DNA of 64,000 bases from an uncultured Mycoplasma sp. (GTDB lineage Bacteria > Bacillota_I > Bacilli_A > Mycoplasmatales > Mycoplasmoidaceae), in contig CANSNC010000001.1 of NCBI GenBank assembly GCA_947648205.1, forward strand, positions 124,001 through 188,000, written 5' to 3'. Shown here piece after piece: positions 33,346 to 39,694 of this stretch. Below the pieces are notes generated by a model. It ran no database searches and was not told the origin of the DNA. It saw only the letters and a program-made list of their open reading frames with translations. The stretch's first letter is position 1. The number at the start of each line of letters is the position of its first letter. The position numbers and the translations under genes were made by a program.

Positions 33346-34077
33346 TTATCACCTCAAGTATGTTAAAAATTCTATATTATTCTTTTTTGCTCCTTTTATT
33401 GGAGATTCACAAATATTTATTAAATCAAAATTATTATTTTTGCAAAATGTTTTAAAACTATTAATTACATCATTTAACAATTTTGGATGAACCTTTCCTT
33501 TTCCTTTAGATATTTCTTTTGGTGTTAATTCAAATTGAGGTTTTAATAAAAAAATTCCACTTATATTTTTTCAATTTAATTCTTTAATTTTATTTAGAAT
33601 TTTTTGTATAGAAATAAAAGAAACATCACAAGTTATAAAATTAACATCTTTAAAATCTAATGCATTTATATCTTTGAAGTTTGTTTGTTCATACAAATAA
33701 ACTTTTTTATTATCTTTTATTTTTGGTGATAATTGATTTTTTCCAACATCAATGCAATAAATTTTTTTAGCATTATTTTCTAAACATACTTGTGTGAATC
33801 CTCCAGTAGATGATCCAATATCAATAACTATTTTATTTGATATATCAATATTGAATTTTTCTAATGCAAATAAAAGTTTATATGCAGCTCTAGAGACATA
33901 CTTTTCTTCTTTTAATATTTCAATAATATCATTTTCATTAACTAAGAAATTTGGTTTATTGATGATATTTTTGTTAACTAAAACACAATTATTATTTATT
34001 AATTTTTGAGAAAGATTTCTTGAACTTACATTTAAATATTCAACAAGATATTTATCCAGTCTTTTTTTGATATCCAT
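33346..34077 (-). CDS. tlyA: TlyA-family rRNA methyltransferase (hemolysin A-like)
   Basis: A 243-residue protein with an N-terminal S4 RNA-binding domain (KRLDKYLVEYLNVSSRN) and a Rossmann SAM-binding domain with VIDIGSSTGGFTQ near residue 85. It would 2'-O-methylate ribosomal RNA. The C-terminus runs through a final TGA Trp to TAA. It is co-transcribed with dinB. Confidence 0.9.
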
Positions 34078-34129: not shown

Positions 34130-35686
34130 ATGAATAATAATACAGGTAATATAAAAAAAAATAATAAGAAATTAATTTATGATATACTATCAAAAATATT
34201 TCTAGGAATGTTTATGGGAATAAGTGATGGTATTCCAGGATATTCAGGTGGAACAACTCTATCACTTTTTAATTTCTATGATGTATTAATGAATAAAATT
34301 AAATTGCTTTTTAAAAAAAATAAATCATCAATTTGATTTTCAAACTTATTTTCTTTGCTTCCCTTTTTTATTACATGAATAATATTTCTAATTTTATTTT
34401 CTTTGTTTAGTTCTTTTATTTCAAAACAAGGAACTAATTATCAAATAGTACTATTTACTTTATTTTTTAGTTTCTCTCTTTTTTGTATTCCAATTTTTAT
34501 ATTAAAAAATATTTATTTTGATTGGAATAAAATAAAAAATAGTAATACAAAAAAGAAATTGTCTCTAACTGTAACAACTATAGCATTTTTTTTAATAATT
34601 GTTTCTATTGGAATATGTTTGTATTTTAATGGAGGAATTTCTTTAGAAAAAAAACATATTGGAAATAAAATAGAATTTAATCCATATGTATTATTGATAT
34701 TATTTACTTGTTTTTTATCTGGATTTTGTATGCTTATTCCTGGCATAAGTGGTAGTTTAATACTATTCTTGGCACAAACTTATGATGATGTTTATTGAGT
34801 TGCATTACAAAATCCTTTGGAAAATATAGGTTTATTGTTGTTAATTGTTTTATTTATTATATTAGGTGTAGTTACAAGTATATTCACAATTAATTTATTA
34901 ATAAAAAAATACTATCATTTTTTTAAATGCATTTCATTAGGTTTAGTTTGTGGTTCTCCAATAGCAATGATATTGAGTTTTTTAGGGAATAATTCATATT
35001 TAGTTTCTTTGCAATCAATGTTCATGCAATGAAATAATTCAATTATTTTTTTTATATTAGCAATTAGTTTATCAATTATTATTAATGCATTTTTATTATT
35101 TACATTTATTTTTAAAAATAAAAAAATAAAATTGAAATTTATGAATTTAGAATATTTAAAAAATTCAGCTCTTCTTGTTGTTGACTTGCAAAATGATTTC
35201 TATATTAATGGAAGTTTAGAGATTAAAAATAGTAATGAAATTGTTGATTATATAAGTGATGTAATTTATTTTTTTAAAATAAAAAATTTAAAAATAATTT
35301 TTTCTCAAGATTATCACCCTTCCAATCATTGCTCATTTTCATTGTGGCCCAAACATTGTGTTAAGGGAGAATATGGTAGTGAGTTTGTTGAAATAATCAA
35401 TAAACAAGATGCTGATATTATTATTAAAAAAGGTACAAGCATAGATGTTGATAATTATTCAGCGTTTTATGATGGTAATGATGAATCAAAACTTAATAAT
35501 TTCTTAAAAGAGAATGATATTGTAAATCTTTACATATTAGGATTAGCTGGCGACTATTGTGTTAAACAAACAGCGCTTGATGCATTGAAGTTTGGTTATA
35601 ATGTTGTTCTTTTATCTAATGGTATAAGATGTGTAAATAATAATTTCAAATTGTCATCTATTAGTGACAAAATTAGAGTAGTTTAG
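34130..35686 (+). CDS. DUF368 membrane protein fused to a nicotinamidase domain
   Basis: One uninterrupted 518-residue frame. Residues 1-335 form a DUF368-type polytopic membrane protein with its two paired hallmarks, GIPGYSGGTT near residue 34 and LIPGISGS near residue 203, and about eight hydrophobic helices. Residues 340-518 form an isochorismatase/nicotinamidase domain: Asp352 (VDLQND), metal ligands Asp394/His396/His400 (DYHPSNH), Lys near 434 and nucleophile Cys477 (AGDYCVK). No stop or Shine-Dalgarno separates them; an internal ATG at 35141 lacks a ribosome site. The membrane part could be a transporter and the enzyme would deamidate nicotinamide for NAD salvage. The main start also lacks a Shine-Dalgarno. 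Confidence 0.85.
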
Positions 35687-35696
35687 TAGGTAATTT

Positions 35697-36623
35697 ATGA
35701 ATGATTTTAAACATATATCAGTTCAAAAAGATAATGCAATTCAATTATTAAATATTAAACCAAATGGTATATATGTTGATTGTACATTTGGAAGAGGAGG
35801 CCATTCTATTGAAATATTAAAAAAATTAAATGGAAGTGGGAAATTGATATCTATTGATAAGGATATAGAAGCTTTTAACTATTATAAAAGTAATTTTGAA
35901 AAGTATGATAATCATTTATTTGTGCATGATACATTTTCGAATTTAGAGAAAATATTGGATAGTTTAAATATTAATTTTGTAGATGGTTTTCTTTTTGATT
36001 TTGGAGTCTCAAGTCCAATGTTTGATGATGGGTCTAGAGGATTTAGTTATAAATCAGAAGGTCCATTGGATATGAGAATGGATCAGAGACAAAAAATTGA
36101 TGCAAAATTTATTATTAATAACTATAGTGACAAAGAATTAGCAATGTTATTTAAAAAATATGGTGATATTAAAAATCCATATTATGTAGTAAAAGAAATC
36201 ATTAAATCGAGAAATGACAAACCAATATTAACGACAACTGATCTTGTTAATATTATAAGAAAATCAGTTAATATCAAAGAATTAAATAAAAAAAAGCATT
36301 TTGCAAGACAATATTTTCAAGCAATAAGAATAGAAGTAAATAATGAATTATATGAAATACAAAAGGCAATTATTGCAGCATTAAAAAAACTGAATTCTAA
36401 AGGAAGAATTGTTACTATCTCTTTTCATTCTCTTGAAGAAAAAGAAGTTAAGAAAGCATTTAAAAGTGTTTTAAATCATGAATATCCTAAAGAATTGCCT
36501 GTTAATAACATAAAAAATGAGTATAAAATTATTAACATTAAAGATAAATGAGCTACAGATGATGAGATACAAAAAAATCATAGAGCTAGAAGCTCTCTTT
36601 TAAAGATTATTGAAAGGAATTAA
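35697..36623 (+). CDS. rsmH: 16S rRNA (cytosine-1402-N4) methyltransferase
   Basis: It methylates C1402 in the ribosomal P site. The 308 residues include VDCTFGRGGHS near residue 28 for SAM binding, SIDKD, FDFGVSSPMFD, GFSYKSEGPLDMRMD and ISFHSLEEKEVKKAF, all diagnostic. It heads the division cluster rsmH-ftsA-ftsZ. The mraZ gene normally upstream in mollicutes is replaced here by the DUF368 fusion gene. Confidence 0.96.
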
Positions 36624-37846: not shown

Positions 37847-39694
37847 ATGAACAAAAGTAACATTGACAAAATTTTGAATTCAATAGATGAAACACCTAGA
37901 GTTAAAACAAATGCAAATTTTCAAAAACCAAGCATAGATGAATATTCTAGTAAAACATACAATAATTCAAATGCAGCAAACTATAGACCAATGCCTCAAG
38001 TTGAAGCAGAGTTTAAAAATAATTCTAATAGGATGCCTCAAGCAAAATATCAAAGAAACGAAGAAAATATGAGAAATGACAATAATACAAATTATAGACA
38101 AGCACAAACGCAAGTTAAACAAAAACAAGTTTCATTAGCAGATGATGATAGAATTTTTGCTAATGGTCAAAATGCTGAAGAATTAGAAAAAACTATTGAA
38201 AAACACTTTGGTAGTGGTTTTGATAGTAGTATTGATGAACCTACAAATAATGGTATAAAAATAAAGAAAAATGTAAACTCTATTCTTGCAGAAATTAATA
38301 AAAGAACATTTATTCAAACAATGTCTAAGGATAAAACACAATTTTCTAAGACATTCAACATTAAAGTAGTTGGTATAGGTGGTGCAGGTAACAATATTGT
38401 TAAGTATATGAAAACATCACAAGAATGACCTGATTTTGTTCAAATTATTGCTTTAAATACTGATTATGTGGCTTTAAGTGCAATGGGAGATTTAGCTGAT
38501 ATTTTTATTTTAGGAGCTAAAGAACTTGATGGTAATGGTTCAGGTGGAGACCCTAATGTGGGTAAAATGGCAGCTGAAGCAGATGCAGAAATAATTAAAG
38601 ATATGTTAAAAGGAACAGATATTTTGATTTTAACTGCAGGACTTGGTAAAGGTACTGGTACTGGTGCTACTCCAATTATTGCAAAAATTGCTCAAGAACT
38701 TGGAATTTTAACAATTGGTTTATTTAATCTTCCTTCAATTGGTGCAGAGGGTAATAGAACATATTCAAATGCATTAAGTGGTTTACAAAAGTTATCTTAT
38801 TTATGTAATGGTTTAACAACAGTAAATAATGATAAAATTATTTCTTTAGATAGAGAAAGAACATCTATTAAAAAAGCATTTGAAGGTGCTAATCAATATA
38901 TAAAAACAATTGTAGAAGAAATTATTAACATTATTACTAAACCAAGTGATATTAATATTGACTTTGCAGATGTTAGAAACTTTTTTGAAGATAAAAATGG
39001 TTTTTTGTTCATGAGAATAGATTTGACAGACTATACAAAGGATGCAATAAAAGAATCTTTGGAACATGCTATTAAAATGGGATTAAGTGATGTTAATATT
39101 AATGAATCACAAAAAGCACTTATTAATTTTAGATTAAATGAAAATGTTCCAAGTATTATTTTAGAAAATACAAGAAGTGCATTAAAAGAATTAGTTTCAG
39201 TTAATAATATTAACATTGTTCATGGTATTTCATATAATGATGTTTATGAAAATGCTCAAATTAATGTTTTATTAACAGGTTCATTTGAATTGGGTGCAAT
39301 TGATGATGAAGAAGAAATTTCTACATCACAACCAGCAATTGGAACTTCTTCAATTGATTTAAATGCTTTGAGTGAAGAGGAAGAAGAAGATGTTTTTCCT
39401 ACACCAAAAACTAATCCTACTCAAAATTCTGACACTTCATCATTGTCTCCTATTAAATCAACATCTAATGATTTTTATGATTACTACAATAGACCAAAAA
39501 CTTCATCTTACTCATTTGAAGATGATGACGATGAAACTTTAGATAATCAAAGATATGGTAATGGAAATCCAGTAATTAATAGAACTGTTCCTACAACTAA
39601 TTTAAGTAGAGAATATGATGATAAGCCTAAAAAGAAACTTCCATGATGAAAAAGACTTTTTGGTAGAAAAAATAGTAGAAGAGAAGAATATTAA
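37847..39694 (+). CDS. ftsZ: Cell division GTPase FtsZ with long N-terminal extension
   Basis: A tubulin homologue forming the division ring, 615 residues against a usual 350-420. The GTPase domain starts only near residue 169, with GIGGAGNN at about 177 and the tubulin signature GKGTGTG at 266-272, followed by a T7-like region and the C-terminal domain. The first 168 residues are polar and Asn/Gln/Lys-rich with no recognised domain. After the core comes an acidic Ser/Thr/Glu linker and a basic tip, KKKLPWWKRLFGRK, with two TGA Trp. That tip resembles a membrane-binding amphipathic helix more than the usual FtsA-binding peptide. Confidence 0.95.

Follow-up and report, generated by a model that had tools for sequence, protein, structure and literature searches.

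Proteins of the DUF368 family move undecaprenyl phosphate to the inner leaflet of the membrane (PMC9876793; PMC12826051), and a few mycoplasmas retain just a DUF368 protein (PMC9876793). Fusions of DUF368 with other domains have been described in three arrangements, namely DUF368-PAP2, PAP2-DUF368 and DUF368-BacA (Sit et al., 2022, PMC9876793). Our own search of the literature returned nothing relevant on fusions between nicotinamidases and membrane proteins in mycoplasmas. Here we describe a gene (34130..35686, + strand) in which a DUF368 membrane domain and a nicotinamidase are joined in one predicted protein of 518 amino acids. It lies in a stretch of 64,000 nucleotides (the window) on a 211-kb contig from an uncultured species of Malacoplasma, a wall-less bacterium with a genome of 1.0 Mb that is available as a 28-contig draft. 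We consider it likely that the gene is a genuine fusion, which arose recently through genome rearrangement and is specific to this lineage, and that the enzyme forms a C-terminal, cytosol-facing extension of a membrane protein, with halves that are independent of one another and a tether that is neutral or tolerated.

Two protein families in one reading frame

When read with genetic code 4, in which TGA encodes tryptophan, positions 34130-35686 form a single open frame of 518 codons followed by TAG, with a predicted product of ~58 kDa. Four tryptophans of the frame (W69, W83, W223 and W301) are encoded by TGA, and translation with table 11, the standard bacterial code, splits the gene into pieces. 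Code 4 is the right one for this host, since the organism is taken to be a Malacoplasma and reading with this code leaves 95% of the window open. The profile PF04018 (DUF368) matches residues 29-280 with 49.3 bits against a cut-off of 26, and PF00857 (isochorismatase family) matches residues 346-499 with 87.9 bits against a cut-off of 27. The claim of an earlier note on this DNA that one stop-free frame carries both domains thus holds and, because each half scores far above the curated cut-off of its family, a chance open reading frame is rejected. Both domains are complete, and the nicotinamidase (residues 338-518) directly abuts the membrane domain (~29-317), with no linker between them.

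The DUF368 domain, of the polyprenyl-phosphate transporter family, was placed at residues ~21-317 (34190..35080, + strand) by profile match, motif alignment and structure model. It consists of hydrophobic helices and two PG-S-G motifs, P36-G37-S39-G40 and P204-G205-S207-G208, which had already been picked out in the earlier note and prove to be invariant across 12 aligned mycoplasmal sequences. The two halves were modelled separately; a full-length model used relatives of DUF368 alone and is weak in the enzyme half. The DUF368 half was modelled with good confidence (pLDDT mostly 80-96 over residues 11-330). It lies far under the cut-off of the PopT equivalog NF052563 (45.6 bits for the domain, in a range of 43-46 bits, against 400), and we therefore describe it as a member of the family and do not name it PopT. 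The fused gene is the sole copy of PF04018 detected in the genome, which encodes UppS on contig C1; neither BacA nor MraY/WecA was detected in this genome.

Across the order-wide set of genomes, DUF368 has a patchy distribution in the wall-less Mycoplasmatales, often alongside UppS. In the family to which this organism belongs, UppS is encoded by 13 of the 17 genomes that bear DUF368 and by about a third of the rest (Fisher p ~0.002, for a family total estimated at ~94 genomes and with relatedness uncorrected). The association is loose, and five genomes of another family (G066, G069, G114, G115 and G116) carry DUF368 with no detectable UppS. A DUF368 protein from another Malacoplasma (G004, L044:1957-3207, - strand) has its own C-terminal extension of ~80 amino acids beyond the last helix, in which no resemblance to nicotinamidase was seen. 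Within the same family, a genome of another genus (G034; L173 / L009) has a weak DUF368-like gene that adjoins tlyA and dinB, the same neighbours as in the window, but in a different orientation.

Profiles, alignment and a structure model all place a PncA-type nicotinamidase in the second half of the protein (residues 338-518; 35141..35686, + strand). The catalytic triad proposed in the earlier note, Asp352, Lys434 and Cys477 (D15, K97 and C140 in domain numbering), falls at columns that are invariant in 10 aligned sequences. The metal site is kept as well, with Asp394, His396 and, as the likely third ligand, His409 of WPKHC in invariant columns and His400 of DYHPSNH likewise conserved. The model of this half has a pLDDT of 90 and a TM-score of ~0.79 to the solved nicotinamidases 2wta and 1ilw, and whether ranked by sequence or by fold, the closest solved structures prove to be nicotinamidases and not other cysteine hydrolases. 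The nicotinamidase equivalog NF008623 (PRK11609) gave 159.2 bits for the domain alone, which is under the cut-off of 174 and yet makes it the best family by far. No further copy of PF00857 was detected in the genome. The enzyme half presumably deamidates nicotinamide as usual, and the resulting nicotinate would have a user, since a homologue of nicotinate phosphoribosyltransferase is encoded on contig C2, although the Pfam NAPRTase models gave no match in the group.

Gene order in relatives and the junction

Both halves are found in one frame in a single genome among 320 of the order, the present one. At 16 DUF368 loci from named GTDB genomes, the ~6 kb covered contain no nicotinamidase. A check suggested in the earlier note, whether related genomes keep the fusion, thus came out negative, and a conserved fusion is rejected on the grounds that searches of the genus, the order and GTDB show no second case. 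A functional neighbourhood of DUF368 and nicotinamidase is rejected too, the genes being unlinked in the other genomes that carry both.

Two other species of the same genus, G006 and G008, have a stand-alone nicotinamidase gene that follows apt and precedes rsmH, an ftsA-like gene and ftsZ, with a Shine-Dalgarno site ahead of its ATG (-5.6 kcal/mol in G006 and -5.1 kcal/mol in G008); DUF368 was not detected in either genome. The order nicotinamidase-rsmH-ftsA-like-ftsZ is conserved in the window, where rsmH (mraW) lies at 35697..36623 (+ strand) and DUF368 stands in place of apt upstream of the nicotinamidase. The divergent upstream neighbour, a gene for a TlyA/FtsJ-like methyltransferase (33346..34077, - strand), has its G008 orthologue at 734 kb, compared with 960 kb for the enzyme. 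Since the orthologues of both this tlyA-like gene and the upstream dinB gene are at unrelated places in G008, and DUF368 is undetected in both relatives, a rearrangement adjoins the join. Residues 246-518 also have a partial match in G006, but this is no remnant of a fusion, as ahead of the stand-alone enzyme it crosses seven stops (TAA/TAG).

Further downstream, FtsZ (37847-39694) has an N-terminal extension of ~170 residues ahead of its GTPase domain, and long N-terminal extensions are present in G006 and G008 too. Outside the window, ribosomal proteins S20 and L22 of this genome (L167:4862-5617, - strand, and L166:493-1464, + strand) and L22 and S3 of G008 (L098:16406-17422 and L098:17446-18657) carry a similar C-terminal domain (roughly 150-165 amino acids aligned, ~66-69% identity between copies), the matches of which are to DUF365 alone and weak. 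This domain seems to move among the C-termini of ribosomal proteins in Malacoplasma.

The junction itself (35099..35140, + strand) comprises the end of the last hydrophobic helix and a basic tail, FIFKNKKIKLKF, and matches the C-terminal ends that occur naturally in stand-alone DUF368 proteins. The DUF368 part stops where its stand-alone relatives stop, in a short basic tail, and the enzyme half begins near the start of the stand-alone enzymes, with Met338 close to that point. Met338 (ATG 35141) lacks a Shine-Dalgarno site, as the earlier note had maintained: the duplex there is -0.9 kcal/mol, compared with a median of -5.6 kcal/mol over 41 start sites of the window and one of -1.4 for the background. 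A clear ribosome site is also missing from about a quarter of the genes here. Three runs, T5 (35109), A5 (35114) and A7 (35120), lie within the junction, and if one base too many were read in them, a stop would fall at 35127; if one too few, at 35113 or 35119.

Origin of the fusion and competing readings

On the simplest reading, the two genes were fused in frame by accident, and recently, where a rearrangement had its breakpoint. A rearrangement would have set the DUF368 gene directly ahead of the nicotinamidase gene in the nicotinamidase-rsmH-ftsA-like-ftsZ cluster, and the join would have deleted the DUF368 stop codon together with the enzyme's own leader, so that the enzyme would now be translated as a C-terminal extension of the membrane protein. 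Such an event at the start of the enzyme would account for the replacement of apt by DUF368, the displacement of tlyA and dinB, and the loss of both the ribosome site and the DUF368 stop. The product would be one stable membrane protein of ~58 kDa whose enzyme half faces the cytosol, as the lysine-rich tail suggests. The halves would work independently, with the DUF368 half returning polyprenyl phosphate to the inner leaflet in a cell that encodes UppS, and the enzyme half deamidating nicotinamide to supply the nicotinate phosphoribosyltransferase, whose gene lies elsewhere in the genome. The tether would then be neutral or tolerated and not a coupling device. Provided that the fused product is stable, the sequence implies that the only nicotinamidase detected in the cell sits at the membrane.

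The join is known from one draft genome and the genes are separate in all relatives, which would fit two separate genes brought into one frame by an assembly or sequencing error, with one base gained or lost in the T5/A5/A7 runs at 35109-35126; a change of one base would create a stop codon at 35113, 35119 or 35127 and leave ATG 35141 as a plausible start. However, when the contig was compared with the whole G008 genome, its ~147 conserved genes proved free of genuine frameshifts (a rate of at most ~2% per gene at the 95% bound), so that far fewer than one false join in frame would be expected. The contig has two apparent frameshifts, which are not assembly errors, since they involve open reading frames antisense to ribosomal-protein genes, and the window holds 132 homopolymers of 7-9 bases within intact open reading frames. 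Moreover, the ribosome site that precedes the enzyme in two relatives is absent here, and a one-base error does not account for its loss. We thus regard such an artefact as quite improbable, and the error at 35033-35141 that the earlier note had named among its refutations is made unlikely by the frameshift-free genes of the contig, though one indel within the A/T runs would still split the gene. It is conceivable, if unlikely, that the full-length fusion and a free enzyme are both made, the latter from a translation start at ATG 35141 or through slippage of transcription in the A/T runs. Met338 is close to where the stand-alone enzymes begin, slippery A/T runs lie ahead of it, and several genes here seem to start without a ribosome site; against this, ATG 35141 has neither a Shine-Dalgarno site nor an adjacent stop codon for re-initiation.

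A further proposal of the earlier note, that the tether couples membrane transport with the processing of NAD precursors, finds no support. With such a tether, the processing of nicotinamide would depend on transport across the membrane or on a membrane location, and it is in keeping with this that the cell's only detected nicotinamidase and only detected DUF368 protein are fused with both active sites intact. Yet no relative searched has the fusion, the two genes are not linked in other genomes, nicotinamide and polyprenyl phosphate have no known link, and DUF368 is a family of polyprenyl-phosphate and not of nicotinamide carriers. Known DUF368 fusions carry C55-PP phosphatases (PAP2, BacA) that act on the same lipid (PMC9876793). 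The fused protein has no match to PAP2 or BacA, its partner domain being PF00857, and because PAP2 and BacA share the lipid pathway and nicotinamidase does not, independent halves are favoured over coupling. We hold functional coupling to be extremely improbable, and think it very improbable that a membrane-tethered nicotinamidase has been selected at the inner face, tying NAD salvage from host nicotinamide to membrane or lipid-carrier traffic. The lack of detectable peptidoglycan-type carrier users (MraY/WecA and BacA) might suggest that the DUF368 half is a passenger or decaying gene that now acts as a membrane anchor only, but all of the motifs invariant among relatives are kept, the domain folds with good confidence and UppS is present, and we give this reading hardly any credence. 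Most likely, the fusion of the two genes is an evolutionary accident that has been tolerated.

Comparison with known systems

The protein brings known parts together in a new combination of domains, found in one draft genome. If made as read, it is a combination unseen elsewhere in the searched genomes and illustrates cleanly how, when a reduced genome is rearranged, unrelated neighbouring genes can be fused. The fusion also draws attention to the carrier lipid that the DUF368 proteins of wall-less bacteria move. The DUF368 half resembles the undecaprenyl (polyprenyl) phosphate translocases PopT and VCA0040 in matching PF04018 above the cut-off, in its two PG-S-G motifs, in being a multi-helix membrane protein and in having UppS encoded in the same cell. 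It differs from them in its low equivalog score, in a host with no detectable BacA or MraY/WecA, and in the enzyme attached to its C-terminus.

The enzyme half shares its fold, the Asp-Lys-Cys triad and the metal site with PncA-type nicotinamidases (those of P. horikoshii, 1ilw, and A. baumannii, 2wta, and the stand-alone enzymes of G006 and G008), and with the latter two also its genomic place ahead of rsmH. Unlike known enzymes of this type, which are free and soluble, it is joined to a membrane protein and lacks a ribosome site of its own. As in the DUF368-PAP2, PAP2-DUF368 and DUF368-BacA fusions, a DUF368 domain is joined to an enzyme domain in one protein; the enzymes of those fusions are C55-PP phosphatases that act on the same lipid, whereas the nicotinamidase of the present protein is metabolically unconnected with it.
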